From Oscillatoriales cyanobacterium (GTDB taxonomy: Bacteria; Cyanobacteriota; Cyanobacteriia; Cyanobacteriales; Microcoleaceae), in contig RDYN01000082.1 in assembly GCA_004293365.1 (NCBI GenBank), positions 1 through 64,000 of the forward strand: a stretch of DNA of 64,000 nt, written 5' to 3'. Positions 5,731 through 63,226 of the stretch are shown here, in pieces; position 1 is the stretch's first letter, and every line of letters begins with the position of its first letter. Made by a program: the position numbers and the translations under genes. The notes below the pieces were generated by a model, which was given only the letters and a program-made list of their open reading frames with translations, was not told the origin of the DNA and ran no database searches.

Positions 5731-5839
5731 ACAGTACCTATTCCAAAATGGCATATAACATATTCTATTATGCCTCCTTCTCAAAAAAATTGAAATAGAT
5801 GATGATGTTCGCATCAACCATTCTCACCAAAAAACGAAG

Positions 5840-6217: not shown

Positions 6218-6290
6218 TTTGCCTGTTCCCTTGCTGATGCTAAGTAAGGGAAAATTCCAGATATATATAGTTGAATGGATAATATTTAAC

Positions 6291-6995: not shown

Positions 6996-7010
6996 AACGG
7001 TAAATTTCAA

Positions 7011-7364
7011 ATGATTAATTCTAGACTTTTTGCCCTAGAAGCTCATGTTCATTTCTCTGAGCAAGTCGCTACGGTGACAGAAATTATTGAGACGGAAAAT
7101 TCTAGCATCGCTATTTGGGGAGTCAGGCCTGGTCAAATTGTGCAAGCTCATTTGCACCCGGATGGACAAGATACTTGGGTGATGCTCCGGGGCACTTTGA
7201 CATATTATTTAGGCAACGGTCAAAGCCAAATCTTGAATGCTGGTGAAGTTGCTATTGCAGAAAAAAATCAGATTCATGGGGCAGTGAATGACCATAGTGA
7301 AGATGCTCTGTTTGTCTCCATTTATTCTGCTCCCCAAATTGGTTACGAACAGGCATCACCTTAA
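7011..7364 (+). CDS. Cupin-domain protein
   Basis: The 117-residue protein is a single small beta-barrel cupin. Motif 1 is visible as GQIVQAHLHPDGQDTWVMLRG in two parts (H-x-H near residues 46-48, G near 58) and motif 2 as GEVAIAEKNQIHG. The two His, plus His in motif 2, would bind a metal; the usual motif 1 Glu is replaced in the DGQDT stretch, so a catalytic role is uncertain. It follows the DUF4079 gene after 15 bp and is probably cotranscribed with it. Substrate is unknown. Confidence 0.8.
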   Translation: MINSRLFALEAHVHFSEQVATVTEIIETENSSIAIWGVRPGQIVQAHLHPDGQDTWVMLRGTLTYYLGNGQSQILNAGEVAIAEKNQIHGAVNDHSEDALFVSIYSAPQIGYEQASP

Positions 7365-7469
7365 GCTAACTTGTCTGTTAACAAAATCTCATAAAATCCC
7401 AGTCTTCTTATGATGAATTAACATTTTTGCTAATTACATCAAGTCCGCTCGATTACCAGTAATAAAAAA

Positions 7470-7530
7470 GGTTTGTAGTGCGGACTAAAGTCCGCTCTAT
7501 GTTGCGGACTAAAGTCCGCACTACGAACCG
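7470..7530. repeat. Palindromic dispersed repeat (GGACTAAAGTCC family)
   Basis: Two head-to-head copies of GTAGTGCGGACTAAAGTCC flank a short centre, so the whole block can fold into a hairpin. Related copies lie at 11311-11406, 34749-34930 and 36367-36487. This family is an intergenic repeat of the host genome. Confidence 0.7.
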
Positions 7531-7575
7531 ATATTATTGGCTTAATTAAATTACGGAAGATAACCATATAAAATT

Positions 7576-8622
7576 ATGAATATTGTTAATGGAGTTTCTA
7601 AGATTTTAATGCGACTTCCCAGCAACATATATCTTGGAATTGCTGTTTTGATTTTTGCAAGTTCTAATTCCTTAACTCGTAAAATCGTTGAGATTGGACA
7701 AGCTCATGCTATGAATGGTAGAAATCCTATCTCACTCTGCAATGTCTTATTTGTGGGCAATATCTGTGCTTTGGGGTTAATGACTCTAATTTTTCATCAA
7801 GATTGGCAACCGCAGACTCTGAAAGCTTTGACTGGTAAAGATTGGATTAGTTTAACCATTACAGGTATTTTATCGGGGGCGATCGCACCAGCGTTAGTTT
7901 TTAGTGCCCTGGGACAGACAAATGTTACCAATATCGTTTTAATTGGGCGCCTCGAACCAATTTTAACCCTGATATTGGGTGTTTGGCTGTTGGATGTGCG
8001 GGTAAATTTTTGGGCAGGTGCTGGCAATGTGATTTCCTTAGCCGGGGTGATAGTGACTGCTGTTTTAGGGAGTTCAGGCCAAAGGATGACGATGGCTGGA
8101 TTTCAAATTGGAACAGGAGAACTTTCTGTAGCGATCGCCGCTATCATTGGTGCGATTTCGGCTGTTGTTGGTAAACTGCAATTACAATCAATTCCCTTGG
8201 GAATTTTTAGTATTTATCGCAATATTCTAGGGACGGTATTTTTTTTCATATTAGCTAATTTCCTGTACGGGCCAAACCATTTTGCTGAAGTTTTATCTCC
8301 TTTTCTTTGGCAATGGATGATCGTCTATGCGGCGATTATTGTCGTCACGGGTAAATTATGTTGGTTGACTGGTTTGAAAAATGCGACTTCAACGGAACTA
8401 AATTTAGCCAATTTAGTGAACCCGATTGCAGCTATAGTGATGGCTTATTTAATTTTAGGGGAAGCTCCTACTTTAGCTCAATATTTAGGGGGAAGTTTAT
8501 TTTTGATCGGAATTATCTTCGGTTTGATTGGCTACCGATATGAGGCTAAAGTAAATCGAGAATTAGTTAAACCCAGTCCTCGCGATGCAATGGAAATGCC
8601 GATCGGTTTCCGGGGAGTTTAA
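7576..8622 (+). CDS. EamA/DMT-family transporter
   Basis: The 348-residue protein has about ten hydrophobic segments arranged as two EamA halves (about 15-145 and 185-325), with the typical LIGRLEPILTLILGVWLL and ANLVNPIAAIVMAYLILGE signatures at the end of each half. DMT transporters export or import small metabolites across the inner membrane; the substrate cannot be inferred. It is separated from the cupin gene by 211 bp containing a palindromic repeat, so it may have its own promoter. Start ATG 7576 was kept; ATG 7609 (MRLPSNIYL) is an alternative. Confidence 0.85.
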   Translation: MNIVNGVSKILMRLPSNIYLGIAVLIFASSNSLTRKIVEIGQAHAMNGRNPISLCNVLFVGNICALGLMTLIFHQDWQPQTLKALTGKDWISLTITGILSGAIAPALVFSALGQTNVTNIVLIGRLEPILTLILGVWLLDVRVNFWAGAGNVISLAGVIVTAVLGSSGQRMTMAGFQIGTGELSVAIAAIIGAISAVVGKLQLQSIPLGIFSIYRNILGTVFFFILANFLYGPNHFAEVLSPFLWQWMIVYAAIIVVTGKLCWLTGLKNATSTELNLANLVNPIAAIVMAYLILGEAPTLAQYLGGSLFLIGIIFGLIGYRYEAKVNRELVKPSPRDAMEMPIGFRGV

Positions 8623-8690
8623 TATTTTTATCGGCATTTTTAAGTAGCCCAAAGGCTAATAAACTCACTCCTAGACGCATTTCTGGCCAA

Positions 8691-8757
8691 AGAAACCGGG
8701 TTTTTTACCTAATCTGATGGCTCCAGCCAAAGATTTTAGCAAAAAAACCCGGTTTCT
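8691..8757. repeat. Inverted repeat AGAAACCGGGTTTTTT / AAAAAACCCGGTTTCT
   Basis: The 16-bp arms (8691-8706 and 8742-8757) are exact reverse complements. This is a dispersed Oscillatoriales-type repeat. The T-run makes it a plausible terminator for the upstream transporter gene. The remaining gene-free sequence to 9060 has HIP1 sites but no supported gene. Confidence 0.55.
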
Positions 8758-9060
8758 GACCTCTTTCGATTTTTGATTAAAGAATTGGAGATGACTGGCT
8801 GGATCGGGATTTGGATCTGAGGTACATTGGCATTTTTTATTAAATGGGTATCAATACTCAATAGTTCAAAATATCAGTGGCTCGCCCTTCAATTCGGTAG
8901 GAGCTCTTCTTGTCTGTAGCCCGATCGCTCTTGAGAGAGAGTGCGATGCTTTTTGGTTGGGCGATCGCCCGCGTTGTACTATACTGTCCTCTGTCCGAGA
9001 CGACTAAAACCCAGAAAGGGTATATCATAACCTTAACCGGATCATTTCTTCCCCAAGGAT

Positions 9061-11088
9061 ATGTTCTACTGCTCGAATCCAAGGTGCTCTAATCCTTTCA
9101 ATCCCGACAAATCTAAATTTTGTCAAACTTGCGGCCAGCCCGACCTCACGCCTCTATTCAGGAACCGCTACCGCGTGATTCGAATGTTGGGCGAGGGGGG
9201 ATTTGGCAGAACTTATGAAGCGGTAGATATCGATCGCATGGACGATCCGTGCGTCATCAAGCAGTTTATGCCCCAAGTTCAGGGAACATCAGCACTTCAA
9301 AAGGCTACAGAACTGTTTAAGCAAGAAGCTAAACGACTTTACGAACTCGGCGAACATCCCCAAATTCCTAGATTAATTGCTTATTTTGAACAAGACAAGC
9401 GACTTTATTTAGTACAAGAATTGATTGAGGGGCAAAATTTACTGGCTGAATTAACTCAGCAGGGAGTTTTTAGCGAAGAAAAAATTTGGCAGTTGCTGGC
9501 AGATATTTTGCCGATTCTGAAATTTGTGCACGATCGCAATGTCATTCACCGAGACATCAAACTTGAGAATATCATCCGCCGCCGCACCTCCCCCAATCCA
9601 TCTTTAAATGCAGCAAATTTTAGCAATTCCGCTTTTCGCAGGGGAGCGCGCCGAGAGTTAGTTTTAATTGATTTCGGCGTTTCCAAACAAGTGACGGGTT
9701 CGCTGATGAGCAAAGTAGGTACGACGGTAGGAACGCCCGGATATTCGCCAGTCGAACAAATGCGAGGTCAAGTTTTCCCCGGAAGCGATTTGTACAGTTT
9801 GGGGATAACTTGCCTGAGGCTGCTAACTCAATGTTTGCCAAAAGTTGACGGTTCCGATGACCTTTACGATCCGATAAATGGCGGATGGATTTGGAGAGAA
9901 AGGTTGCCCGCCGGTACAAAAATCAGCAGCGAGCTGGCAACAATTTTAGATAAATTAATTCAAGATTATCTCAAAAATAGATATCAATCTGCTGATGAAG
10001 TCATCAAAGCTTTAAATCTCTATTCTTTACCTCCCCAACCCCATTTTGTCAAGGCGGGACAACTTACTTTAAATTCTGCTCAGACCAAGGCTGCCCTACC
10101 TCCCCTCAATGCTTATCTAACCGAGGGAGGAAAACTTGCTATCAATACCCCGCTCAATCACAGCGCGCAAATCAATAGCAATATCTCTGTGAATTCAAGG
10201 GTAAAATCTAACACAAATCCGCCTCCTAACCAGGTAACGCCAAAGATTGCTGCTGTCAAAAGCAGTTTTGAATTTCAGGTGGTGACAGTAGACAATCGCG
10301 GGCAGCAAACTCATGTTAAAAGTGGCAAAGCGCATTTTTTTGAAGAACATCTCGGCCGCAGTACAGTCATGGAAATGGTATCTGTTCCTGGCGGTACTTT
10401 CCTGATGGGTACTCCAAAAGATCGGGGTGACAGCGACGAAAAACCGCAGCACTCAGTAACTTTAGCACCTTTTTATATTGGCAAATTTCCCGTCACTCAG
10501 GGACAGTGGACAGCGGTTGCAGCGATGCCGGAAATTAAAATATATCTCAATCCCGATGCTGCCCGTTTTAAAGGTGTAAATCGACCGATAGAAAATATAT
10601 CTTGGTATGAAGCGATGGAGTTTTGTGCTAGACTTTCTCGCAAAACTGGTAAGCTTTATCGCTTGCCTAGCGAGGCCCAATGGGAATATGCTTGTCGGGG
10701 GGAAACTTCGGGGCCGTTTCACTTTGGGGAAACGATTACTAGCGAGTTAGCAAATTACAACGGAAATTCTAATTACGCTGATGCACCGAAGGGAGTTTAT
10801 CGCTTTCAAACTACAGATGTTGGTAGTTTTAAACCGAATGCTTTCGGATTGTACGATTTCCACGGAAATGTGTGGGAATGGTGCGCGGATGCTTGGCACA
10901 GTAATTACAACGGTGCGCCTGTTGATGGCAGTGTTTGGGAGTCTGGCGGCGACTTTTCGCTGAGGTTGTTGCGGGGGGGTTCTTGGAACGATCATCCTCC
11001 GAATTGTCGCAGCGCGTGCCGCCTTAGATATCAGCCGGATTGCAAGGCTAGTATTGTGGGTTTTCGTGTGGTTGTTTCTGTTGTTTGA
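9061..11088 (+). CDS. Ser/Thr protein kinase fused to a formylglycine-generating-enzyme-like domain
   Basis: The 675-residue protein begins with a zinc-ribbon (Cys 4, 9, 21, 24), then a Hanks-type kinase domain (about 35-305) with GEGGFG (44-49), Lys67, HRDIKLEN (Asp165) and DFG (Asp204), all catalytic residues present. A low-complexity linker rich in Asn, Ser and Pro follows, then an FGE-sulfatase (SUMF1) domain (about 440-674) with PGGTFLMG, LPSEAQWEYA, GNVWEWCAD and a terminal LRGGSW/GFRVV. Such fusions are common in filamentous cyanobacteria, where the FGE-type fold probably binds ligand or protein rather than making formylglycine. No membrane segment is seen. Substrates are unknown. Confidence 0.9.
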   Translation: MFYCSNPRCSNPFNPDKSKFCQTCGQPDLTPLFRNRYRVIRMLGEGGFGRTYEAVDIDRMDDPCVIKQFMPQVQGTSALQKATELFKQEAKRLYELGEHPQIPRLIAYFEQDKRLYLVQELIEGQNLLAELTQQGVFSEEKIWQLLADILPILKFVHDRNVIHRDIKLENIIRRRTSPNPSLNAANFSNSAFRRGARRELVLIDFGVSKQVTGSLMSKVGTTVGTPGYSPVEQMRGQVFPGSDLYSLGITCLRLLTQCLPKVDGSDDLYDPINGGWIWRERLPAGTKISSELATILDKLIQDYLKNRYQSADEVIKALNLYSLPPQPHFVKAGQLTLNSAQTKAALPPLNAYLTEGGKLAINTPLNHSAQINSNISVNSRVKSNTNPPPNQVTPKIAAVKSSFEFQVVTVDNRGQQTHVKSGKAHFFEEHLGRSTVMEMVSVPGGTFLMGTPKDRGDSDEKPQHSVTLAPFYIGKFPVTQGQWTAVAAMPEIKIYLNPDAARFKGVNRPIENISWYEAMEFCARLSRKTGKLYRLPSEAQWEYACRGETSGPFHFGETITSELANYNGNSNYADAPKGVYRFQTTDVGSFKPNAFGLYDFHGNVWEWCADAWHSNYNGAPVDGSVWESGGDFSLRLLRGGSWNDHPPNCRSACRLRYQPDCKASIVGFRVVVSVV

Positions 11089-49726: not shown

Positions 49727-50335
49727 ATGGCCGAAATAACCAAAGAAGAAATGCGCGAACGGCTGGGAAATATTGACCAGATTCGCGATATAATTTTCGG
49801 GGCACAGCTTAGAGAATACGACAATCGTTTCGACAAAATAGATTCCGACTTGTCGATGATGCAGCAAGATATGCAGGCTCGCATCGAACAGGTGAAAACA
49901 GTTCTGTCCGCAGAAATGAGGGCGGCAGTTGATTCGTTAGAAAAGAAAGTTAAATCGCTCACCTTAAATACGCAAGAAGAAACCGCCGATCTCCGACAGC
50001 AAATCGATCGCGTTAACCGCAAATGCTCCAGCACCATCGAAGCCCTCGACGAGGCGATAGACAATCAAACCAGTTCCATTCGCGACGAACTCTCCCAAAC
50101 CAGAGAGCGACTCTCCGAAGAAACCCGGACTTTGAAAACACAGGTTTTTGAAGAACTCGACCGGCGCTTTTCCATGCTCAGGGATGTTAAAGTTTCCAGA
50201 GATGACATGGCAGAAATTCTGTTTGAACTAGGCATGAGGCTCAAAGGAACAGAATTTGTGCCCGAACTTAAAGGCGTTGCTGATAATAAGTCAAATAACG
50301 AATTTTTGTTGCCGGAGCGCCACCATCACGGATAA
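49727..50335 (+). CDS. Coiled-coil protein, first gene of the GTPase/OmpA cluster
   Basis: The 202-residue protein is mostly coiled coil (about 40-150: FDKIDSDLSMMQQDMQARIE, SLEKKVKSLTLNTQEETADL, LSQTRERLSEETRTLK), with a short helical head and tail and no membrane segment or signal. Residues about 20-32 contain IRDIIFGAQLREYD, and a similar L-I-F-G-x-Q block (LQNLIFGSQMSDIE) occurs in the next protein, so the two may share a binding partner. It is separated from the OmpA-type gene by 6 bp. AGGAG precedes the ATG. Confidence 0.75.
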   Translation: MAEITKEEMRERLGNIDQIRDIIFGAQLREYDNRFDKIDSDLSMMQQDMQARIEQVKTVLSAEMRAAVDSLEKKVKSLTLNTQEETADLRQQIDRVNRKCSSTIEALDEAIDNQTSSIRDELSQTRERLSEETRTLKTQVFEELDRRFSMLRDVKVSRDDMAEILFELGMRLKGTEFVPELKGVADNKSNNEFLLPERHHHG

Positions 50336-50341
50336 TAACGC

Positions 50342-53194
50342 ATGGCTTTACCGAAAGAAAATCCGGAAGTTGAAAATCAGCTAGAGGGTTTTGTTTCTAA
50401 ACCTGACGAGCCTGCTGCCTCGGCAGCAACCCAGCTAGACCCCTTGCTGAATCTGTTATTCGATCTCAAAATTATTGCTGGTTCAAAGCAGCAAAATCCC
50501 GAGCCCGAAGCTGACAGCAGTGGCAAAAACGGTCAAGCTGGGACCCTCGGCGGGTCGATCGATTTGTTAGGTATTTCCTCCCCACAGCCAGAGGAAATTT
50601 CACCGCAGCAAAATCCCGAGCCCGAAGCTGACAGCAGCGACACCGAGCCCGAAGCTGACAGCAGCGACAAAAACGGTCAAGCTGGGGCCCTCGGCGGGTT
50701 GATGGATTTGTTAGGTATTTCCTCCGCACAGCCAGAGTCCATTGCAGCCGCGTCAGAAACTGGCTCTCGCAAACCGGATTCTACTGCTTCCCCGGCTGTT
50801 GCAGGCGAGTCCAAAAGTTGGCTGTTTGCTACTCACAAACTCAACACTTCTGAACTGGAAAGAAACTATTCCTCAGCTAAAACTATAGATGTTTCCGCAG
50901 ATGTTTCCGATTTGGAGAGAGAATCGCCGCCGCTACAAGAATTGCCCTTGACAATTTCTGATTCTCCCCAGCACGTACAGGGCGAAAAATCCCAGGATTC
51001 TGACACCGCTTTAGAGAATTCGCCCATTCCCCAAACTCTGGCACCACCCGCAGCCACCGCTCCGAATTCCTCAGTGTCCGGACTTTCGCAGCCATCCCAA
51101 AAAATATATGCAGATGCAAGTGTGGCATCAATTGAACCGAAGCGAGAGTCGCAAGAACAGCCGATACCACTATCGCAGCGATCGGAAATCATAGGCGATA
51201 TTAAACAAGAATTCAATGAAGCCGACAGCGCCATGGGAAGGCTGCAAAATCTGATTTTTGGCTCGCAAATGTCAGATATCGAGCAACTCAAAAATCTCCT
51301 AGCAGAAACTGATTTGCCGGGGGTGTGCAATCTGCTAGCAAGCATCGACTCTAAATTAGAAAAACTGGAACACCAAATCTACGATCCACAAGAGCTGATC
51401 GCCCTAATGCTGCCTTGGATAGCAGAAATTCTCAGCCGCAAAATTGCCGATTCCAGAGAAGAAGTTGTTAATGCGATAGTCCCAATTATTGACGAAGTGA
51501 TTAGGGCTAAAACTGTGGAAAACAGGCAAGCAATGAGTTCGGCGATAGGTGAGTTGCTGCCCGACGCACTTGCTCAACAAATAGAAAATTCGCCAGCGGA
51601 TATTGCTCGGGCGATCGCCCCAGAAATGGGTTTGGCTATTAAAGAGCAAATTCGCCTCGATCAAGAGTCGATCGCCCAAGCCCTCGCCCCGGAAATGGGC
51701 AAAGCCATTACAGCCCAAATCGCCCTCGAACGCGACTCTATGGTGGATGCTCTCTATCCCGTCATTGGCAGTACGATCTCTAAATACATGGCAGAAGCTA
51801 TTAAAACTATCAATGAAAAAGTCTCAAATAGCTTAAGCATGGAAGGAGTAGGGCGCAAAATTCGCTCCCAAGTACAAGGAGTCTCCGAAGCTGAATTAAT
51901 CCTCAGAGAATCAATACATTTTACCGTCCAAGCAGCATTCTTAATTCACAAAGCATCAGGCTTGGTAATTTCCGAAGTTCAAAACTCAGAAACCTACCAG
52001 TTAGAATCAGAAATGGTAGCAGGAATGCTCACAGCTATTCGCAGCTTTGTGAACGAGTGCATCGTTCAGCCCGGAGAAATTTCGGAACTAAATCAAATTG
52101 AATACGGCGACTCCAAAATCATGCTAGAAGTAGCCGGATACTGCTACATGGCAGTCGTGATTAAAGGAGAACCGCCACAGTCGTTCATCAACAAACTGCG
52201 GCAAACAGTTAGTAATCTGATCCTTAATTACGCTAAATTAATTCACGAGTTTAACGGCGATCCCGGTACTATACCCGACTCGCTGCACCCGTTCATCCAA
52301 AATTTATTCGAGCCGCTGCAAAGGGAAAAATCAACCAAACCCCCGATCGCCATAGTCGGTATCGGTTTAGCCGCCCTCAGCTTAATCTTAGTACCTTGGG
52401 GAATTTATCAGTACCGCAGCAGCATCGACCGCCGCCTCGAAGCAAATGCCTTCGCAGCCTTAGCCTCGACTCCCGAATTAGCAGTTTACCGCTTAGATGT
52501 TGATGTCGATGGCAAAACATTAAAGCTAACCGGAAAGTTGCCCAATCAAGAATTGCGGACAAAAGCTGAAAAAATAGCCGCATCAACTGCACCTTCATTG
52601 CAATTAGATAATAAAATTGTAGCTGTAGATGTCCCCCCAGATCCAGTTTTGACGGCGGCCGAGGTGCAGCGGATCACCGCTGTTTTGAACCGCTTGTCGG
52701 GCGTTTCTATTTCTAGTCGGTATGGCGATCGCAAAGTTACAGTAGAGGGGACAGTCACCGACGGTGCAGACGCCGAGAAAATTGCTCAGTCCCTGAAGCA
52801 AATTCCCGGCGTTGAGTCAGTCGTCAGCACTGTTAAACTAGATCCGCTCAAAATTGCCACCCGCATCTACTTCGACCAAGGAACGACAACATTAGACTCA
52901 ACATCAGAAGCAATCATCGCCAGTGTCAAAAGTTTCATGGATCAATATCCTCAAAAACATATTAAGATAATTGGACACAGCGATCGCACAGGGGAACTTG
53001 TCACAAATCAACGGTTGTCGCTCCAGCGTGCCGCAGCAGTGCGAGATGCTTTGGTGCGGCAAGGTGCCGATCCGAAGCGCCTCCTTGCGGTTGGCAGTCA
53101 AAATCCTCCCCCCGGCGTGGAACCCAATCAACCGCTACTTTTAAGCAGATGCGTGCTATTTGAACCAATAACTAAGACCATAAACAGCAAATAA
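50342..53194 (+). CDS. Inner-membrane OmpA/BON-domain protein with large cytoplasmic region
   Basis: The 950-residue protein has a disordered acidic N-terminal part (1-300) with a duplicated segment (NPEPEADSS, GGLMDLLGISS), a helical region, an alpha/beta domain at about 520-640 (HFTVQAAFLIHKASGLVISE, MVAGMLTAIRSFV), one membrane span at about 668-690, two BON-like domains (about 700-835) and a C-terminal OmpA peptidoglycan-binding domain (about 840-925: RIYFDQGTTTLD, IIGHSDRTG, NQRLSLQRAAAVRDAL). The long N-terminal part would thus face the cytoplasm and OmpA the periplasm. The 520-640 domain looks like a roadblock/longin-type platform; that is tentative. The GTPase gene follows after 2 bp. 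Confidence 0.85.
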   Translation: MALPKENPEVENQLEGFVSKPDEPAASAATQLDPLLNLLFDLKIIAGSKQQNPEPEADSSGKNGQAGTLGGSIDLLGISSPQPEEISPQQNPEPEADSSDTEPEADSSDKNGQAGALGGLMDLLGISSAQPESIAAASETGSRKPDSTASPAVAGESKSWLFATHKLNTSELERNYSSAKTIDVSADVSDLERESPPLQELPLTISDSPQHVQGEKSQDSDTALENSPIPQTLAPPAATAPNSSVSGLSQPSQKIYADASVASIEPKRESQEQPIPLSQRSEIIGDIKQEFNEADSAMGRLQNLIFGSQMSDIEQLKNLLAETDLPGVCNLLASIDSKLEKLEHQIYDPQELIALMLPWIAEILSRKIADSREEVVNAIVPIIDEVIRAKTVENRQAMSSAIGELLPDALAQQIENSPADIARAIAPEMGLAIKEQIRLDQESIAQALAPEMGKAITAQIALERDSMVDALYPVIGSTISKYMAEAIKTINEKVSNSLSMEGVGRKIRSQVQGVSEAELILRESIHFTVQAAFLIHKASGLVISEVQNSETYQLESEMVAGMLTAIRSFVNECIVQPGEISELNQIEYGDSKIMLEVAGYCYMAVVIKGEPPQSFINKLRQTVSNLILNYAKLIHEFNGDPGTIPDSLHPFIQNLFEPLQREKSTKPPIAIVGIGLAALSLILVPWGIYQYRSSIDRRLEANAFAALASTPELAVYRLDVDVDGKTLKLTGKLPNQELRTKAEKIAASTAPSLQLDNKIVAVDVPPDPVLTAAEVQRITAVLNRLSGVSISSRYGDRKVTVEGTVTDGADAEKIAQSLKQIPGVESVVSTVKLDPLKIATRIYFDQGTTTLDSTSEAIIASVKSFMDQYPQKHIKIIGHSDRTGELVTNQRLSLQRAAAVRDALVRQGADPKRLLAVGSQNPPPGVEPNQPLLLSRCVLFEPITKTINSK

Positions 53195-53196
53195 TT

Positions 53197-53733
53197 ATGT
53201 CAGTTACTATATCTAAAAAAATGTGCATGATCGGCGACTTTGGCGTCGGTAAAACCAGTTTGATCCGCCGTTTTGTCGATCGGCAATTCAGCGACGAGTA
53301 CCTCTCCACCGTCGGAGTCAAAATTTCCCGTAAAAGTATCCCATTAGAAAACACCAAACACCAGGAAGGTGTCACAGCACAGTTGCTGATTTGGGACTTA
53401 GAAGGACATACAAAATTCAAAGGAATCGCACCGACTTACTTGCAAGGAGCTAGCGGCGTTTTAATCGTTGCCGATGTCAGCCGCTCCGAAACAGTCGAGC
53501 GAATCTCCGAACACGTTAAGCTGTTTTCTTCAGTCAATCCCAAAGGGTCAATTATTGTCGCCCTGAACAAAGTAGACTTAATTGACGAAGAAAAATTGGC
53601 ACTGCTAGTGGAAATCTCCCATGCGATCGGTCAAGACAAAGTAATAGCAGTTTACACTACATCGGCTAAAACAGGCAAAGACGTTGACGAAATTTTCCAC
53701 AAACTAGCTTACACAATGGTAGAAGCAGTATGA
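53197..53733 (+). CDS. Rab-like small GTPase
   Basis: The 178-residue protein has all five G motifs: P-loop GDFGVGKTS (13-21), switch I Thr38 (STVG), G3 DLEGH (67-71), NKVD (124-127) and TSAKTG (155-160). G3 differs from the usual DTAGQ: the catalytic Gln is His71, which in Ras-type proteins lowers intrinsic hydrolysis, so an activating protein may be needed. There is no C-terminal Cys for lipidation. It sits between the OmpA protein (2 bp upstream) and a PAS histidine kinase (4-bp ATGA overlap), so it is likely a switch linking them. Confidence 0.92.
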   Translation: MSVTISKKMCMIGDFGVGKTSLIRRFVDRQFSDEYLSTVGVKISRKSIPLENTKHQEGVTAQLLIWDLEGHTKFKGIAPTYLQGASGVLIVADVSRSETVERISEHVKLFSSVNPKGSIIVALNKVDLIDEEKLALLVEISHAIGQDKVIAVYTTSAKTGKDVDEIFHKLAYTMVEAV

Positions 53734-55280
53734 ACCCCCTTTTTAGAAAGCTCCTGGGCCCGCGACAAACAGAGTATCTGGTAGTAAATCACAATTTCAT
53801 CATTCAAGAAACCTCCGCCGAAGTGCAGAATTATGCCGATACTCCAGGCGACGCGCTCCTCGGTACAGATGCTCGCATCAGTTTTCCCGAACTGATTGGC
53901 ATTGAAAATATCCTCATGTCGATCGTGATGGGAAGGCGGCCGAGTTTTGAACTCAAAGGTATCGCTCGATTTACCGACAACAACCGCCCTTTATACTTCG
54001 ATCTGTTGGCTATAGAACATGAAAACGAACAAGATATGGCAAGTAATTTGCTAATTTTGATTGAAGATACCACCGAAAAAATGGTGATGAAGCAATCCTT
54101 GATTCAGAGGGCGAATGAAGCTAATCTTTTACTGAGCGCCTTAGCCGCTTCAAAAGATTATATAGATAAAGTTATTCGCTCCATGGGCGATGCTTTGTTG
54201 GTGACAACAACATTAGGAATTATCAAAACAGTCAATCAATCGGCACAATGGTTGTTTGGGTACAGCGAAGCAGAATTGATCGACCAGCCCCTCTCACTCA
54301 TAGTAGTCGAAGAAACATTGCTTTACCAAGGTCGCCACCGCTATATTTTGTCTCAAAAAGAGCTGCTAAGAGAATTGGAAGTAGCCTGCACTACTAAGTC
54401 GGGAGAAGAAATTTGGGTAGAATTTTCCTGTTCGGCAATTCAGACAGAATTAGACGGACTTTATGATTTCATCTATATCGGCAGGGACATCACAGAACGC
54501 AAGCAAAAAGACATGGAAATTCGCCGATGTTTGGTAAAAGAGCAAGAACTCAGACAACTAAAATCTCGTTTTTTCTCAATGCTTGCTCACGAATTCGGCA
54601 ATCCTTTAAATACAGTATTATTTGCTACTCAAATCCTCAAAGAATACGGCGACGAAATCACCCAAGCGGAAAAACAAGAATACCTCGAACACGTTAAATC
54701 AGCATCTAAACACATGGCTCAGCTATTAGATGACGTGCGGTTGCTCAGCAGCGCCGAAGCTGGAAAACTCCAATTCAATCCCGCACCACTTGACTTGCGA
54801 AAATTTTGCAGCGAGTTAGTAGAATCAATTAAAATTAGTTACGGAAAAAATCATAGAATTAACTTTAATTGCCGAAAAGCTATTCCGCAGGCGAAAAAAA
54901 CCGCTCGGGAGTCGGAGGAAACAGAACACTGGCCCGCACTGGATGCCAAATTGCTGCGGCACATCTTGACAAATTTGCTGTCAAATGCTGTCAAATATTC
55001 GCCGATCGACAGCTATATTGATTTTCAATTAAATTGTCGTCATGAAGAAGCTATATTTAAAATAAAAGATGCGGGCATTGGCATTCCTATAGAAGACCAA
55101 GAACAACTGTTTGAATCTTATTACCGGGCCCAAAATGTCGGAAAAGTACCCGGTACAGGACTGGGTTTATCCATAGTCAAGCAGTGTGTAGACTTGCACG
55201 GAGGTCAAATCGAATTTTCCAGCGATACAGGGTTAGGCACTACCTTTGTAGTCACAATTCCATTTGAAAAACAGAGGTAA
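53730..55280 (+). CDS. PAS-domain histidine kinase
   Basis: The 516-residue soluble protein has an N-terminal module (about 1-115: EYLVVNHNFIIQETSAEVQN, RISFPELIGIE, LYFDLLAIEH), a coiled-coil linker, a PAS domain (about 145-265) and a kinase core with His287 in MLAHEFGNPLNTV, plus NLLSNAVKYSP, DAGIGIP and GTGLGLSIV. The H box has G-N in place of R-T. Its N-terminal module is clearly paralogous to the first 115 residues of the adenylate cyclase at 55677. The start codon overlaps the GTPase stop, suggesting coupled translation. No receiver is attached. Confidence 0.92.
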   Translation: MNPLFRKLLGPRQTEYLVVNHNFIIQETSAEVQNYADTPGDALLGTDARISFPELIGIENILMSIVMGRRPSFELKGIARFTDNNRPLYFDLLAIEHENEQDMASNLLILIEDTTEKMVMKQSLIQRANEANLLLSALAASKDYIDKVIRSMGDALLVTTTLGIIKTVNQSAQWLFGYSEAELIDQPLSLIVVEETLLYQGRHRYILSQKELLRELEVACTTKSGEEIWVEFSCSAIQTELDGLYDFIYIGRDITERKQKDMEIRRCLVKEQELRQLKSRFFSMLAHEFGNPLNTVLFATQILKEYGDEITQAEKQEYLEHVKSASKHMAQLLDDVRLLSSAEAGKLQFNPAPLDLRKFCSELVESIKISYGKNHRINFNCRKAIPQAKKTARESEETEHWPALDAKLLRHILTNLLSNAVKYSPIDSYIDFQLNCRHEEAIFKIKDAGIGIPIEDQEQLFESYYRAQNVGKVPGTGLGLSIVKQCVDLHGGQIEFSSDTGLGTTFVVTIPFEKQR

Positions 55281-55676: not shown

Positions 55677-58463
55677 ATGACAACCCTGTTAAAAAAACTG
55701 TTGGTTCCCCACCACTTGGAGTACCTAGCACTGGATCGAGACTTTCTTATCGAAGAGACATCTCTCAATGTGCAGCGGTTTGCCGACTGTCCCGAGGAAG
55801 TAGCGGCCGGAAACGATGCGCGCATTCCCTTTCCCGAATTGCTGGGAACTGAAGAAATTTTAATCGATATTTTTGAAGGGCGGTTGCCAAATTTTGAATT
55901 AAAAGCAATGACGCGGGTATTAGAAAATGGCTCGCGGCTTTATTTTGATATGTATATCGTCGAGTTCAGCAATGACGATAACGATAGGAGATTAATTGTA
56001 TTTTTTGAAGACGTAACTGACAGGATGGGTTTGGAACAAACTCTAGTCCAGGCTACCAATGAAATGAATATTTTATTGAGTACCTTAGCGGCTACTAATA
56101 ATTATGTTGAAAAAATTATTACTTCCATGGCCGAAGTTTTGTTGGTAACAACGGCTTCGGGAAAAATTAAAAAAGTCAATCAAGCGGCTCAAGATTTGTT
56201 CGGTTACAGCGAATCAGAATTAGTAGGTCAGCAAATAGACGCCCTGGCTGCTGAGGGCGCATCTTTACAAGCAGTCAGCCAAGAGCCGCCTCAACTATCT
56301 CAAACTAACACCGAAGTAATTTGCACGGCAAAAACCGGAGAAAAGCTCACAGTTTCCTTTTCCTGTACGGCGATTCCAAGTGACATGAAAAGTATTTCTG
56401 CAAATTCTGCGGCCCTCCAAGATTTTGTGTACATCGGCCGCGACATGACATACAGACAGCGAGCCCGCAAGCGAAAAGTAGCTCAGTACGTCACCACTCA
56501 CATCCTCTCTACATCCGAAACAATCAAAAAAGCTCTAGAAGCAATTCTCCCCGCAATTTGCGACAGTTTGGGATGGGATACTGCCGAACTTTGGATGCCG
56601 GAAGCTGAGGAAAAATTGCTGTCAGGAAATAAGAGAATAACTGCGGTTTCCGACCCCAATTCGCTCAGGTGTGTCGCCAGTTGGACAAAAGGCTCAGTTT
56701 CCATCCCCAAATTTGCCGAATTTGCCGAACAAATGACCTGTGGATTCGGGGAAGGATTGCCCGGTCTCGTTTGGGCCAGCGGTTCGTCTCAGTGGATTGC
56801 AGATGTCACAGAAAGCGACAGTTGTCTGCGCCGAGAAATCGCCGCAGAAGAAGGACTGCACGGAGCTTTTGGCTTCCCAATTTTGGGCGACTACGAGCAG
56901 GAAAATTCTGAAAAGTCTGTGTTGGGGGTGATGACTTTTTTTAGTCGCGAAGTGCAGTGTTTTGATGAAGAATTGCTCCAGACAATGGCAACAATCGGCA
57001 GCCAACTCGGTCAATTTCTCAAGCGCAAGCAAGCGGAAATAGCTTTGCGGGAAAGCGAAGAACAATTACGAGACTTATTTGAAAATGCTACTGATTTAAT
57101 TCAAAGTATTGGATCCGACGGTCATTTTTTGTATGTAAATCGGGCTTGGCGGGAAACTCTGGGCTACAGCGAAGCCGAAATTGCTCAACTGACTGTTTTT
57201 GAGATCATTCATCCCAACAGTTCCCCAGAGTCGATGGATATATTATATCAAGCTTTTACGAAAAAAACTGTTAATGAAAATACATTTTATCCTCACTCTA
57301 TTCAAGTAATATTTATTACTAAGAATCACGAACAAATTTTGCTGGAAGGTAGCATAAACTGTAAGTTTTTGGAAGGTTCGTTAGTGGCGATTCGCGCTAT
57401 TTTGCGAGACATTACTGCTCGCAAGATGGCGGAAGATGCTCTAGCAAAATCTGCGTCCTTGCTGCAAGCAACTTTTGATTCTACTGCTGACGGTATTTTA
57501 GCTATTGACAGGAGCGGAAAAATAGTTACTTTCAATCGCGAATTTGTGGAAATGTGGGGCGTACCTAGCGACGTGATGGCGCTGCGAGACGACGCAACAA
57601 CGATCGCCTTTGTGCAGAACCAACTGAAAGACCCGCAAGCATTCCAAGAGAGAATAGAATCGCTTTACGACCACCCAGAAGCCGAAAGTTTCGATTTGTT
57701 GGAATTTCAAGACGGCAGATTTTTTGAACGCCATTCGGAACCGCAGCGGCTGGGAGATAAAATTATCGGTAGAGTCTGGAGTTACCACGACATTACGGAA
57801 CGCAAGCAAGCAGAAGATGCCCTGCGGGAAGAACAAGAAAAATCGGAAAAGCTGCTGTTAAATATCTTGCCGAACCCAATAGCAGAACGGCTCAAACAAA
57901 ACGAAACTACTATTGCTGAATACTTTCCGGAAGTGACTGTTTTGTTTGCAGACATTGTGGGGTTTACTGCTTTGTCTTCTGTCATGAATCCCATCGACCT
58001 CGTGGAGCTCTTGAATAAGATTTTCTCAGGATTCGACTTGTTGTGCGAGCAGCACGGCTTAGAGAAAATCAAGACAATCGGGGACGCATACATGGCGGTA
58101 GGAGGGCTGCCCTACCCTCGGGCAGACCATGCAGAGGCGATCGCCCAAATGGCTCTGGATATGCAAAGAGAGATAGCTCGGTTTAATGGTCAGAATAAGA
58201 AATATTTTAGCATCCGCATCGGCATCCACAGCGGCCCGGTTGTTGCCGGAGTAATTGGCATCAAAAAGTTTATTTACGATTTGTGGGGCGATACGGTAAA
58301 TATCGCTTCCCGCATGGAATCTCATGGTTTGCCTTGGCGGATTCAAGTCAGTGAAACTACTTATAACTTATTGAAACACAAATATGTTCTTGAAGGGCGG
58401 GGAACTATTGAAGTTAAAGGTAAAGGGGGAATGAAAACTTATCTGCTTGTTGGGAAAAAATAA
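55677..58463 (+). CDS. Class III adenylate cyclase with PAS and GAF sensors
   Basis: The 928-residue protein shares its N-terminal module and first PAS (about 1-260) with the kinase upstream. A GAF domain (about 275-455) and two further PAS domains (about 460-590 and 590-715) precede a coiled coil and the cyclase domain (about 755-928). Metal ligands Asp759 (FADIVGF) and Asp803 (IGDAYM), adenine-selecting Lys799 and Asp868 (YDLWGDTVN), and the N-x3-R transition-state residues (NIASRM) are all present, so ATP to cAMP activity is predicted. No membrane segment is seen. Ligands are unknown. Confidence 0.93.
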   Translation: MTTLLKKLLVPHHLEYLALDRDFLIEETSLNVQRFADCPEEVAAGNDARIPFPELLGTEEILIDIFEGRLPNFELKAMTRVLENGSRLYFDMYIVEFSNDDNDRRLIVFFEDVTDRMGLEQTLVQATNEMNILLSTLAATNNYVEKIITSMAEVLLVTTASGKIKKVNQAAQDLFGYSESELVGQQIDALAAEGASLQAVSQEPPQLSQTNTEVICTAKTGEKLTVSFSCTAIPSDMKSISANSAALQDFVYIGRDMTYRQRARKRKVAQYVTTHILSTSETIKKALEAILPAICDSLGWDTAELWMPEAEEKLLSGNKRITAVSDPNSLRCVASWTKGSVSIPKFAEFAEQMTCGFGEGLPGLVWASGSSQWIADVTESDSCLRREIAAEEGLHGAFGFPILGDYEQENSEKSVLGVMTFFSREVQCFDEELLQTMATIGSQLGQFLKRKQAEIALRESEEQLRDLFENATDLIQSIGSDGHFLYVNRAWRETLGYSEAEIAQLTVFEIIHPNSSPESMDILYQAFTKKTVNENTFYPHSIQVIFITKNHEQILLEGSINCKFLEGSLVAIRAILRDITARKMAEDALAKSASLLQATFDSTADGILAIDRSGKIVTFNREFVEMWGVPSDVMALRDDATTIAFVQNQLKDPQAFQERIESLYDHPEAESFDLLEFQDGRFFERHSEPQRLGDKIIGRVWSYHDITERKQAEDALREEQEKSEKLLLNILPNPIAERLKQNETTIAEYFPEVTVLFADIVGFTALSSVMNPIDLVELLNKIFSGFDLLCEQHGLEKIKTIGDAYMAVGGLPYPRADHAEAIAQMALDMQREIARFNGQNKKYFSIRIGIHSGPVVAGVIGIKKFIYDLWGDTVNIASRMESHGLPWRIQVSETTYNLLKHKYVLEGRGTIEVKGKGGMKTYLLVGKK

Positions 58464-58728: not shown

Positions 58729-61700
58729 ATGGAACTTGCGAATTTGTCGGTAAATTTACGATCGCCCCACGAATTTGTCGATCGCCCAACAGTGACAGTT
58801 GCGCCCTCAACTTCGCTCGGAGATGCGATCGCCCTGATGCGTCGGGATCCAAACACTTGCCCGCTTCCCGACTCAAACGAAACGGGAAAAACATCGATTA
58901 GTTGCGTCTTAGTGGTCGAGGAAAATCAGCTAGTCGGACTGCTAAGCCGGGGAGATGTGCTGAACTTAGCCGCCGAATATGGATGGCAAGAAATGCAAGT
59001 TGCCGACGCCATGACGCGGAATTTAATTGTATTAAAAGAATCCGAATTTACAGATATTTTTACCGCATTTGAGCTATTTTGTCAATACTCTATTGATTGT
59101 TTGCCAATTGTAAATGAATCGGGTCAGCCAGTAGGTTTAGTCACCGAAGAAAGGATTCGCCCAGAAATTTACAGCCTAGTCAAAATGTTGCAGCAAGAAG
59201 TTGTCGAACTTCAGCAAAAACAGTGTGAACTCTTAGCAAGCCAGTCAGAAATCGAAAAACAAGCGAGCGTGCGCAAAAATGCCGAAAATGCCCTGCGGCA
59301 GAGCGAGGCGCGCTACCGGGCAATTGTGGAAGACCAGAGCGAACTAATTTGCCGCTACCGGAGGGACAGTAAAATCACATTTGTGAATCAAGCTTATTGT
59401 GACTATTTCGGCGTGGGATCGGAAGACTTGCTCGGTAACAGTTTTATGCCACTGATCCCAGAGGAAGACCGAGAAATTTTTCAAGAACAATATGCTTCTC
59501 TGTCTCCGCAAAAGCCTGTGTTTACTTGCGAACACCGAGTAATTTTGCCGAGCGGGGAAATTCGCACTCAGCAGTGGATAGATCGGGCGATATTCGACAA
59601 AAACGGAGAAATTGTGGAGTATCAAGCTGCGGGTAGGGATGTCACCGATCGCAAACAAGCAGAAATCGCTTTGCAGCAACTCAATGCAGAGTTAGAACGG
59701 AGAGTTCAGCAGCGGACTGAATGCTACGAACAGACCGTATTAGCAGGTAAATTGACCGCAGAAAAACTGCAAAACTCGGAAGCTGAGCTGCTGGCGCACT
59801 TTAATGGCATGACGGATATCGTGCTGGTTTTCGACGCCAGCGGCCGCTGCCTCAAAATCGCCCCCACGGCTCCCCAACTGCTGTACAAACCGGCGGCTGA
59901 AGTGCTCGGCAAAACCCTCGCCGAAATCTTCCCAGAAGCGGAAGCTAATTTTGCCCAGGGCCACATTCGCCAAACCTTGGCATCTGGACAAACCCATAGA
60001 GTTGAATACAGCATGGAAATTGAGGGCAAGTTAATCTGGTTTGATGCCAGTGTTTCGCCCTTTGGAGTCGATCGAGTGATGTGGGTGGCCCGAGACATTA
60101 CCGCTCGCAAACACGCAGAAGCTGCACTGCAAAAGAGCGAGGAAAAGTTTCGCAACTTGTTTGACGATGCTCCAATTGCGATCGGTTTGGCAAGCGTGCG
60201 CGATGATTGCCGGATGCTCAAGGTGAATGAAGCTCACCGCCAGATGTTGGGCTACAGCGATGAGGATTGGGCGGTAATGAGTTTCGCTGATGTCACCCAC
60301 CCAGAAGATTTAGAAGCAGATTTAGATCTACTCAAGCAGTTAGTCGAGGGTAATATTCCTCGCTTCCAAATGGAAAAACGCTTGATTAAGAAAAATGGCG
60401 ATTTGGTGTGGGCAAACTTGACGGTGACGCTGATTCGCGACGGCGAGGGCATTCCTCTCTACAGCATGGCGGCGATCGAAGATATCAGTTACCGCAAGCG
60501 GGCAGAAATGGAATTGCAGCAGTTAAAAGAACGCCTGCAATTTTTACTTGCTTCTAATCCTGCGGTAATTTTTACGGCCGCATCGGCAGGGGATTTTTGT
60601 ACTACTTACATCAGCGATAATGTTAAGGCAATCGTTGGCTACGACCCCCAAGAGGTGTTAGCAGATTCTAAGTTTTGGGCTAACAGGATTCACCCTGAAG
60701 ATCTGCCGCAATTTATAGTAAATTTTTCTGCTTTGTCAGTAGGTAAAAATTGCATTTGCGAATACCGCTTTCTGCATAAAGATGGAATGTACCGCTGGCT
60801 GCGGACGGAACTTAAACTATTGGTTGACAGCAAGGGCATTCGCCTCGAAATTATTGGTTACGCGGCCGATATCAGCAATTCTAAATGCGCCGAAATAGCT
60901 TGGCGGCACCAGTTCGAGCAAGAACGGCTGGTGGAGGCGATCGCCCGCCGCGTCCGCCAGTCTTTGCAATTAGAGGAAATTCTTAACACTACCGTTGCCG
61001 AACTCCAGCAAGTCTTGTTAGCCGCTCGAGTTTTGGTATATCAAATTTTACCCGAAAGCGGCGGCCGAGTCATTGCGGAAGCGGTGGTAGAAGGATGCAG
61101 TCGGCTGATGGATAGATTTTTTGGCCGAGAGGTTTTTCCTGCCGAATGTTATCAGCTTTATTTGCAAGGACGAATTTGTGCAATTTCCGAACGGGATGAC
61201 CTCTCCATTACACCTTGTATGGTGGAGTTTATGAAAGAAATTGAAGTTAGCGCCAAGCTAGCAGTCCCGATTATTCAGCACGGGGAAGTTTGGGGATTGC
61301 TGATCGCGCACCAGTGCGATGGGCCCCGGGAGTGGCAAGAATGGGAAATGAATTTATTTGAGCAGTTGGTGAATCAATTGGCGATCGCCATTCAGCAATC
61401 TCTACTTTACCAGCAACTGCAAGCTGAACTGAGCGATCGCTTCCAAGCGGAAGCCAATTTGAAAAACTCCCTCAAAGAAAAAGAAATTTTGCTCAAAGAG
61501 ATTCACCACCGCGTTAAAAACAACCTCTGCGTAGTTGCCAGCCTATTAGAATTGCAATCTAACACGGTTGCCGACCCCCAAATAGCCAAAATGTTTGAAG
61601 AAAGTCAGAACCGCCTGTACTCTATGGCTCTGATTCACGAGAAACTGTACAGATCGACCAACCGGGCACAAATTAATTTTGGCGAATATCTAGAAGATTT

Positions 61701-62100
61701 GGTAACTAACTTGTTTCACTCTTACAATATAAGTGACAACCGCATTCAGTTGCAGGTATTAGCTGAACCAATTTCCCTAAATCTTGAGACCGCTACTCCC
61801 TGCGGTTTAATTGCTAATGAATTGGTTTCAAATACCCTGAAACACGCTTTTCCTCACGGTGCGAGCGGTACAGTTAGTGTAGAATGCTATCAAACTGGCG
61901 ATCGGGAAATCCACCTTTTCGTTAAGGACAACGGCATTGGTTTTCCTCAAAACTTAGATTTTAGGAAAACTAACTCGATGGGCTTTCAAGTTGTCTGTAC
62001 TTTAACCGAGCAGTTAGAAGGAACCATCGAAATGTCAAGACAAATCGGCACAGCCTTTCACTTAGTATTTAACGAGTTAATCTACTCGCAAAGGTTCTAA
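58729..62100 (+). CDS. CBS-PAS-GAF multisensor histidine kinase (HisKA_2 type)
   Basis: The 1123-residue soluble protein starts with a CBS-domain pair (about 20-145: VVEENQLVGLLSRGDVLNLA, LPIVNESGQPVGLVTEERI split), followed by four PAS domains (about 195-320, 345-460, 465-590, 600-730) and a phytochrome-like GAF domain (about 750-905) that lacks a clear bilin Cys. The kinase core is of the HisKA_2/HWE-related kind, with the phospho-acceptor in EIHHRVKNNL (about 924-933) and IANELVSNTLKHAFP. It likely passes phosphate to separate receivers; the next gene, 4 bp downstream, begins with one. CBS pairs suggest adenylate sensing. Confidence 0.93.
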   Translation: MELANLSVNLRSPHEFVDRPTVTVAPSTSLGDAIALMRRDPNTCPLPDSNETGKTSISCVLVVEENQLVGLLSRGDVLNLAAEYGWQEMQVADAMTRNLIVLKESEFTDIFTAFELFCQYSIDCLPIVNESGQPVGLVTEERIRPEIYSLVKMLQQEVVELQQKQCELLASQSEIEKQASVRKNAENALRQSEARYRAIVEDQSELICRYRRDSKITFVNQAYCDYFGVGSEDLLGNSFMPLIPEEDREIFQEQYASLSPQKPVFTCEHRVILPSGEIRTQQWIDRAIFDKNGEIVEYQAAGRDVTDRKQAEIALQQLNAELERRVQQRTECYEQTVLAGKLTAEKLQNSEAELLAHFNGMTDIVLVFDASGRCLKIAPTAPQLLYKPAAEVLGKTLAEIFPEAEANFAQGHIRQTLASGQTHRVEYSMEIEGKLIWFDASVSPFGVDRVMWVARDITARKHAEAALQKSEEKFRNLFDDAPIAIGLASVRDDCRMLKVNEAHRQMLGYSDEDWAVMSFADVTHPEDLEADLDLLKQLVEGNIPRFQMEKRLIKKNGDLVWANLTVTLIRDGEGIPLYSMAAIEDISYRKRAEMELQQLKERLQFLLASNPAVIFTAASAGDFCTTYISDNVKAIVGYDPQEVLADSKFWANRIHPEDLPQFIVNFSALSVGKNCICEYRFLHKDGMYRWLRTELKLLVDSKGIRLEIIGYAADISNSKCAEIAWRHQFEQERLVEAIARRVRQSLQLEEILNTTVAELQQVLLAARVLVYQILPESGGRVIAEAVVEGCSRLMDRFFGREVFPAECYQLYLQGRICAISERDDLSITPCMVEFMKEIEVSAKLAVPIIQHGEVWGLLIAHQCDGPREWQEWEMNLFEQLVNQLAIAIQQSLLYQQLQAELSDRFQAEANLKNSLKEKEILLKEIHHRVKNNLCVVASLLELQSNTVADPQIAKMFEESQNRLYSMALIHEKLYRSTNRAQINFGEYLEDLVTNLFHSYNISDNRIQLQVLAEPISLNLETATPCGLIANELVSNTLKHAFPHGASGTVSVECYQTGDREIHLFVKDNGIGFPQNLDFRKTNSMGFQVVCTLTEQLEGTIEMSRQIGTAFHLVFNELIYSQRF

Positions 62101-62104
62101 AATC

Positions 62105-63226
62105 ATGAGTTTCCCAGAGAAAACAATTAAAAAGATTTATATTTTAATTGTGGAAGACGAACTATTAATCGCTAAGAATTTATCTCAAAAATTACAAAAA
62201 TTGGGATATCAAATCGCCGATATTGTTTCTTCAGGAGCCGATGCCATCCAGCGCGCAGGCGAACTCAAACCAGATTTAATTTTAATGGATATAGTCATAA
62301 AAGGTGATATGGATGGTATAGCAACAGCAGCAATAATTCATCAAGAATTAGATATACCAATTATTTATACAACTGCCTATGCTGACGACGAAACTTTGCA
62401 GCGAGCCGAAAATACTGGTTCTTACGGCTACCTCCTCAAACCTTTTAAAGAAAGAGAACTGCACGCTACTATCAAGATAGCGCTGAGCAAACATCAAGAA
62501 GCAGTTAATCTGCAAAAAATCATGGCATTAGCAGCAGCAAAAAGCGAAAATAGAGCGCGATTTGTTTCAATGGCTTACCACGATTTAAACACTCCTTTAA
62601 CTACCATACAACTCTCGGCTGAAATGCTGGAAGATAGCAATTTGCAGATGTCGCCAGGAACAAAAAATAAAAATGTCAATCGCATCAAAAAAGCCGTCAG
62701 CAATATGAGTGAATTGCTGGACGATATTTTAATGCTCAGTAAAGCAGAAGCAGGCAAACTTTCCTTGAATTTAAATCAGCTAAATGTGACAGAGTTCTGC
62801 ACATCTATTTTAGAAGAACTGCAACCGATCGTCACCGACAAACACCTTGTAACTTTCCTCGCCAAAACAGAGCCGCTGCACGCCAATCTCGACGGAAAAC
62901 TGCTGCACCACTTGCTGACTAATTTGCTTTCAAACGCTATAAAATATTCTCCCAATGGCGGTAATATTAGTTTAGAATTAAGCTGCGAAAACCAGCAAAT
63001 AATATTTTGCGTTCGAGATGAAGGAATTGGGATGACAGCGGAATATGAAGAAAAACTATTTCAGCAGTTTGAACGGGGCGCTAATGTCGGAAAGATTAAA
63101 GGTTCGGGTTTGGGACTCTGCATTGTCAAACACATAGTTGACCTGCACGGCGGTACAATAAGTGTGGAAAGTGCGATCGGCAAAGGTACTACATTTATTG
63201 TGGCGCTGCCTTTTTTTAGTCAGTAG
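62105..63226 (+). CDS. Receiver-histidine kinase hybrid
   Basis: The 373-residue protein has an N-terminal receiver (Asp18-Asp/Glu pair VEDE, phospho-acceptor Asp62 in LILMDIVIKG, Lys112 in KPF) and a kinase core with His159 in MAYHDLNTPLTTI, followed by NLLSNAIKYSP, DEGIGM and GSGLGLCIV. It begins 4 bp after the CBS-PAS-GAF kinase stop, so the two form a likely kinase-to-receiver relay. There is no sensory domain. A (GTCATTA)n repeat follows the stop. Confidence 0.92.
   Translation: MSFPEKTIKKIYILIVEDELLIAKNLSQKLQKLGYQIADIVSSGADAIQRAGELKPDLILMDIVIKGDMDGIATAAIIHQELDIPIIYTTAYADDETLQRAENTGSYGYLLKPFKERELHATIKIALSKHQEAVNLQKIMALAAAKSENRARFVSMAYHDLNTPLTTIQLSAEMLEDSNLQMSPGTKNKNVNRIKKAVSNMSELLDDILMLSKAEAGKLSLNLNQLNVTEFCTSILEELQPIVTDKHLVTFLAKTEPLHANLDGKLLHHLLTNLLSNAIKYSPNGGNISLELSCENQQIIFCVRDEGIGMTAEYEEKLFQQFERGANVGKIKGSGLGLCIVKHIVDLHGGTISVESAIGKGTTFIVALPFFSQ

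Follow-up and report, generated by a model that had tools for sequence, protein, structure and literature searches.

The locus at positions 49727-55280 of a 64,000-nucleotide stretch of an Oscillatoriales cyanobacterium (the window, positions 1-64,000 of contig RDYN01000082.1) raises the question of how a small GTPase is connected to the genes packed around it, which encode a coiled-coil protein, an OmpA-type membrane protein and a histidine kinase. The four open reading frames (ORFs) lie on the + strand with gaps of 6 and 2 bp and a final overlap of 4 bp; a sequence-only reading of the window had described this spacing, and the ORF coordinates bear it out. The same reading listed these four genes correctly but overlooked a fifth, outside the four-gene span, which codes for a nucleotide cyclase; over the N-termini, cyclase and kinase are 46% identical (Table 1). 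It had also taken membrane protein, GTPase and kinase for one module. Indeed, gene order and co-occurrence in genomes support well that the peptidoglycan-anchored membrane protein, the GTPase and the kinase form a single module, but other output enzymes can stand in the place of the kinase. The answer proposed here is that a predicted longin-like domain of the OmpA protein acts on the GTPase, which in turn would be read by a domain common to kinase and cyclase.

Relation to Group 1 Rup GTPases

The sequence-only reading knew of no described system of this composition, which was wrong: it is the neighbourhood of the Group 1 Rup GTPases of PMC4316618 (Wuichet and Sogaard-Andersen), made up of a coiled-coil protein, a protein with an unknown domain, a transmembrane (TM) segment and OmpA, and an output enzyme. 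A complex signalling role analogous to that of the actinobacterial conservon was proposed there; according to that paper, no Rup had been characterised experimentally, and regulator, effector and function were not known at the time of writing. Our search of the open-access literature, with subscription papers mostly outside its scope, returned neither experimental work on the Group 1 Rup system nor a longin assignment for its OmpA protein.

The GTPase of the window is a single-domain protein within the 240 aa of Group 1 Rup (Pfam Ras, 4.4e-28). The G1, G2, G4 and G5 motifs are present, G3 reads WDLEGH with the Asp retained, and the position of Ras Gln61 is occupied by His71, so that the catalytic Gln is missing. 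The protein stops at the G domain, without C-terminal cysteines. Its nearest solved structures are Rabs (among the best 60 of 202 matches), with RABF2b first at 6.5e-22. The neighbours are a coiled-coil and an OmpA protein, the output carries a conserved Gln in its N-terminal region (Q122 or Q126), and there is no coupling to MglB; by all these features, the locus almost certainly belongs to the Group 1 Rup kind. The G3 Asp and the Rabs as best solved relatives set it apart from an actinobacterial conservon, which has an MglA-type GTPase and an MglB-type roadblock gene.

Conservation of gene order and co-occurrence

The module was compared across 53 loci (two from some genomes), comprising the window, 12 relatives and 40 loci chosen from GTPase matches; a spurious Erwinia locus (L037), whose ORFs include no protein of this kind, was excluded from every count. 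Microcoleus and its neighbours are the closest named relatives. The OmpA protein lies upstream of the GTPase on the same strand in 50/53 loci, and coiled coil and OmpA protein both do so in 45/53; the adjacency, which had been singled out for checking from the sequence, is therefore conserved. An output with the shared N-terminus (E below 1e-8) was found in the examined stretch of 35 of these 45 loci. The OmpA protein is missing upstream in L053, L057 and L065, and five loci are exceptions only for want of an upstream coiled-coil match: L047, L061 and L062 lie near the end of a contig, L056 counts among the exceptions because its best match is downstream, although it has another upstream, and L077 has none. 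In L040 and L063 the OmpA protein and the GTPase are separated by an output gene. Genome G102 has a split module, with GTPase and output on the L057 contig and coiled coil and OmpA protein on the L087 contig. In the draft genome of L072, OmpA protein (5146-8036) and kinase (8569-10127) each appear as two overlapping ORFs, pointing to a frameshift or an assembly error.

In 291 cyanobacterial genomes, the GTPase (cut-off E 1e-25) was found in 34, the longin-type domain (1e-8) in 34 and the output domain (1e-15) in 35; the module is thus patchily distributed (34/291). GTPase and longin-type domain share 33 genomes, and so do GTPase and output domain, with p-values of 3e-41 and 6e-40 that ignore relatedness between genomes. 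The output domain lies more than 8 kb from any GTPase gene in 20 of 59 places, and eight GTPase genomes (G031, G090, G094, G115, G195, G226, G300 and G316) have every output domain that was found away from the GTPase; the link is thus not one of adjacency alone. In some of the eight, fragmented assembly perhaps accounts for the separation.

A second sub-family has a shorter OmpA protein of 589-604 aa (L050, L061, L066, L067, L068 and L070), is 23-28% identical to the window over the longin-type domain, and falls with five of its six genomes in family f18. The four-gene order is also kept, with a cyclase as output, on plasmids of Mesorhizobium and Rhizobium (L078, 5083-10400; L079, 4992-10341), whose OmpA proteins carry long repeats after the hydrophobic segment. 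Among 15 plasmid records listed out of 105, the longin region was present in four (Nostoc UHCC 0926, Mesorhizobium WSM1497, Rhizobium 007 and Rhizobium CC1099) and the other 11 matched in the OmpA end only; in a second search, with 40 of 96 records listed, only two rhizobial ones had it.

A longin-like domain predicted in the OmpA protein

Pfam places BON at residues 696-759 and OmpA at 843-921 of the OmpA protein. Its residues 665-690 are the sole TM-like segment (19-residue mean hydropathy above 1.6) across the five proteins, the cyclase staying just under the threshold with a maximum of 1.56. Because the segment starts at residue 665, the N-terminal part comprises ~660 residues, in agreement with the sequence-only description of an OmpA/BON protein with a cytoplasmic part of 660 residues. 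With this single segment, the N-terminal part should be cytoplasmic and the BON-OmpA part periplasmic. The OmpA domain contains the segment GHSDRTGELVTNQRLSLQRAAAVRDAL, which we take to fit the peptidoglycan-binding pattern.

Residues ~526-660 were modelled with AlphaFold, and the model was compared with solved structures by Foldseek and VIA-align. It has the longin topology of strand-strand-helix, three strands and two helices. The VIA matches include longins of guanine nucleotide exchange factors (GEFs) for Rabs as well as SNARE and adaptor-complex longins, and the 50 matches listed are presumably all of the longin or longin/roadblock type, judging by titles and by the nature of the chains. 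Foldseek also returned roadblock chains (Ragulator/LAMTOR, E from about 2e-3). Longin and roadblock are separated by a C-terminal helix (PMC10933270), which is modelled here with block values of 87 and 74 in the predicted local distance difference test (pLDDT); the helix before strand 1 has about 52. From these models, the domain very probably has a longin or longin/roadblock fold, and the region 520-640, which the sequence-only reading had picked out as a possible partner of the GTPase, is likely to be the platform for it. A match to a longin sequence profile was not found, and hence we call the domain longin-like in fold and not a member of the family. DUF6831 matched 3 members (best 3.1e-4), but its genome search matched nowhere, controls included, and is therefore uninformative; for the domain, PHROGs returned only a weak unknown family (0.0086).

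An assignment as MglB/roadblock was tried and rejected, since the domain had no profile match and Robl_LC7 matched in none of 19 genomes, the window's own included. Of the 34 GTPase genomes among the 291, 4 also have Robl_LC7 (p 0.8), which indicates no association. Elsewhere in the window's genome, contig C204 carries an orphan longin-OmpA paralogue of 1202 aa (L083, 7212-10820); no coiled coil, GTPase or output match was found in the 19.5 kb around it. Similar orphan genes are present in G004, G018 and G022.

The output enzymes share an N-terminal domain

Pfam matches in the kinase start at residue 146 or later, and the preceding domain, which PHROGs did not match, was modelled with a mean pLDDT of 79.5 from 21 sequences; Foldseek identified a PAS fold (best 1.9e-6). 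FPE-x-x-G is invariant in 66 copies of this domain, and Q122 is kept in 63, Q126 in 62, E130 in 62 and all three in 59. In the model, these three sit at positions i, i+4 and i+8 of the helix that leaves the PAS fold. The domain is carried by kinases, hybrid kinases and cyclases, and where kinase and cyclase follow each other in L025, L029, L033, L073 and L074, the gap between them is 57 bp. A domain that is independent of the enzyme and yet tracks the GTPase is a candidate effector domain. QxxxQxxxE is exact in 2/4 inspected kinase-like outputs of the short-OmpA sub-family and, by reading of the sequences, also occurs in two rhizobial cyclases. A third copy of the domain lies at G000:C43:7674-8099, in the same genome on a contig other than that of the module.

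A block common to coiled coil and OmpA protein

The sequence-only reading had pointed to an IFG-x-Q block in the first two proteins, and this holds, strongly for the coiled coil (residues 24-27) and more weakly for the OmpA protein (residues 306-309). The block is present in 45/46 coiled-coil relatives, 37 of them with the Q. Among 36 non-redundant OmpA proteins, L[QR]-x-L-L-x-G (I/M allowed at the two inner L) was found in 20, and 12 of these have Q or E in the final position. When the coiled-coil profile was scored on the OmpA proteins, 1/500 column-permuted controls reached the observed sum, which is thus above chance. A docking motif common to both proteins is no more than a reasonable guess. 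LLGPRQ at the kinase N-terminus was rejected as a third copy, the majority form in the 66 output domains being LL-x-P-x-x-x-EYL, without that Q.

Table 1 Features of the locus in the window
Feature	Position	Strand	Description and basis
Coiled-coil protein	49727..50335	+	202 aa; without TM segment; precedes the GTPase
IRDIIFGAQ, conserved N-terminal block of the coiled-coil protein	about 49781-49807	+	
Longin-TM-BON-OmpA protein	50342..53194	+	950 aa; long cytoplasmic part with longin-type domain (predicted)
LQNLIFGSQ block of the OmpA protein, similar to the coiled-coil block	51242..51268	+	profile score and motif count
Predicted longin domain, residues about 526-660	51917..52321	+	AlphaFold, Foldseek, VIA-align; conserved block
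OmpA domain, peptidoglycan-binding type	52868..53104	+	Pfam
Rab-like Group 1 Rup small GTPase	53197..53733	+	178 aa; Pfam Ras, G motifs
Histidine kinase	53730..55280	+	516 aa; without TM segment; N-terminal PAS-type domain, then Pfam PAS_9, HisKA, HATPase_c
Shared N-terminal domain of the outputs	53730..54158	+	predicted PAS fold; Q122, Q126 and E130 on the helix after it
Second output, nucleotide cyclase	55677..58463	+	928 aa; same N-terminal domain, then PAS, GAF, class III nucleotide cyclase

Proposed mechanism

The OmpA protein would cross the inner membrane once, grip peptidoglycan by its C-terminal OmpA domain and display the longin domain in the cytoplasm. There, the longin domain may bind the Rab-like GTPase and set its nucleotide state or its place, in a GEF-like manner or as a scaffold, and the state of the cell envelope would thereby be written into the GTP loading of the GTPase. 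The GTP-bound form would be read by the N-terminal PAS-type domain common to kinase and cyclase, so that phosphorylation and cyclic nucleotide output could be switched together, with the coiled-coil protein as a putative adaptor whose IFG-x-Q block, along with the similar one in the OmpA protein, would make the connection. Plausibly, the signal would run from the OmpA protein through the GTPase to the kinase, the direction that the sequence-only reading had suggested. For the mechanism as a whole, from the longin platform at the wall and the Rab-like switch to the reader domain and the two outputs that share it, the evidence tips us slightly towards acceptance. That the locus is a bacterial Rab-longin pair, in which a wall-anchored longin regulates a Rab-like GTPase and a PAS-type QxxxQxxxE effector links the GTP state to kinases or cyclases, we put forward tentatively, at a little short of even chances.

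Several results weigh against this proposal. The longin model was built from 13 mostly close sequences with a mean pLDDT of 57, and its blocks within residues 121-256 range from 43 to 87. Pfam on 38 members gave Fuz_longin_1 in one member (E 0.073) as the sole longin-type match and none for roadblock; Fuz_longin_1 over 20 genomes gave 8 weak places, the OmpA locus never among them. A profile search found no PDB chain below E 0.45. In hhalign against 24 roadblock proteins the probability was at most 0.25%, and controls did as well (coiled coil 1.9%); a further control, in which longin was aligned with the C-terminal 260 residues of the OmpA proteins, reached 96%, which looks like an artefact because truncated ORFs, for example one of 663 aa in L072, place the longin domain inside the control. 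Moreover, longin folds also work without GTPases, as in SNAREs and adaptor sigma chains. As to the distribution, of the 45 loci in which both coiled coil and OmpA protein precede the GTPase, 10 had no output domain (E below 1e-8) in the examined stretch. G128 has GTPase and output domain, but the longin domain was not found on recheck; in G059 the GTPase is present and an output domain was not detected at E 0.01; in G022 and G217 the output domain is present but the GTPase matches are only distant ones (3.4e-9 and 8.7e-7), and in G217 the longin domain was not found on recheck either.

The shallow alignment, the negative profile tests and the Ragulator/LAMTOR chains would be expected if the fold call were wrong and the domain belonged to the PAS/GAF/profilin kind of alpha/beta folds or were roadblock proper, but the listed VIA matches of longin or longin/roadblock type and the well-modelled C-terminal helix make this quite improbable. 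With the fold accepted, the longin domain might still only dimerise the complex or localise it at the wall and leave the nucleotide state unchanged. SNARE and adaptor-complex longin domains, which are not GEFs, are among the best fold matches; the presence of RabGEF longins among these matches and the co-occurrence of longin and GTPase in 33/34 genomes point the other way, although both would also suit a scaffold, and we regard mere dimerisation or localisation as unlikely.

On the output side, the shared domain may be a GTPase-activating protein (GAP) instead of a reader only, whose invariant Gln is given in trans, and the signal would then end once the GTPase engages kinase or cyclase; PMC4316618 raised the possibility that an output glutamine supplies the catalytic Gln missing from Group 1 Rup GTPases. 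The Asp of G3 is kept in 53/53 GTPases, while the Gln61 position holds H in 23, S in 13, Q in 7, E in 7 and R in 3, which together with the near-invariance of Q122, Q126 and E130 suits a GAP. Against it, 7 of the 53 GTPases retain a Gln of their own, and for three residues on the helix leaving the PAS fold a role as signalling helix is as likely, so that a GAP role appears improbable as well. The direction could also be reversed, with kinase and cyclase as upstream or parallel sensors that control the GTPase and the OmpA protein as envelope effector. In actinobacterial conservons, kinase-like, roadblock and DUF proteins act jointly with a Ras-like GTPase (PMC13343842, PMC4316618), and the kinase of the window carries a further PAS domain in addition to the N-terminal one. 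Since the enzyme type varies while the N-terminal domain stays, the outputs resemble interchangeable readers, and the kinase has no TM segment, leaving the OmpA protein as the only part in contact with the wall; we therefore give the reversed direction rather little weight and retain the order OmpA protein, GTPase, outputs.

Comparison with known systems

The locus has the same four parts as the Group 1 Rup neighbourhood of PMC4316618, with the G3 Gln missing and without coupling to MglB, but differs from that description by the longin fold proposed for the unknown domain and by the PAS-type QxxxQxxxE N-terminus of its outputs, which are a kinase and a nucleotide cyclase here and typically a diguanylate cyclase/phosphodiesterase or a kinase there. 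It resembles the actinobacterial conservon (Cvn: kinase, roadblock protein, DUF protein and MglA-type GTPase) in that one operon holds a small GTPase, a kinase and a partner that, by predicted fold, belongs to the longin/roadblock group; unlike in the conservon, the GTPase is Rab-like with a G3 Asp, an MglB-type roadblock gene is missing, the partner domain is within a wall-anchored OmpA protein and the kinase is without TM segment. Likewise, in MglA/MglB of Myxococcus a bacterial Ras-like GTPase has an alpha/beta partner that belongs to the roadblock/longin group, whereas the genome of the window has no Robl_LC7 match. As in the eukaryotic longin RabGEFs Mon1-Ccz1, Fuzzy-Inturned and TRAPP, a predicted longin fold stands beside a Rab-like GTPase, but the system is bacterial, the domain is in one chain with TM-BON-OmpA and has no detectable sequence similarity, and the GTPase ends at its G domain, unlike in eukaryotic Rab systems.

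Rup GTPases were placed nearest to eukaryotic Rab/Ran/Ras/Rho (PMC4316618, PMC4915359), PMC4915359 leaving the phylogeny unresolved. PMC3521125 has longins arise in the eukaryotic line out of roadblock domains of prokaryotes, Lokiarchaeum is named as the first prokaryote found with longin domains (PMC4917890, whose table marks 'Longin/Roadblock' as present in bacteria), and roadblock/longin families are thought to be archaeal in origin (PMC10933270). Longin is the fold on which eukaryotes control Rab switches, and it is predicted here in a wall-anchored membrane protein. If this longin regulates the Rab-like GTPase, the pairing of a Rab-type GTPase with a longin platform extends beyond eukaryotes and Asgard archaea, and Group 1 Rup GTPases have their missing regulator in the OmpA protein encoded in their own operon. 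The composition is not new; what is offered is a candidate regulator and a candidate effector for a GTPase family close to eukaryotic Rabs. A wall-anchored bacterial longin beside a Rab-like GTPase, together with a defined reader domain, would name both, testable with four or five genes from a cyanobacterium in culture.

Neighbouring genes

Counts of promoters and terminators in the window were near the shuffled expectation. Directly downstream of the cyclase gene lie a CBS-PAS-GAF-HisKA_2 kinase (58729-62100) and a receiver-HisKA-HATPase hybrid (62105-63226), possibly parts of an extended signalling cluster.
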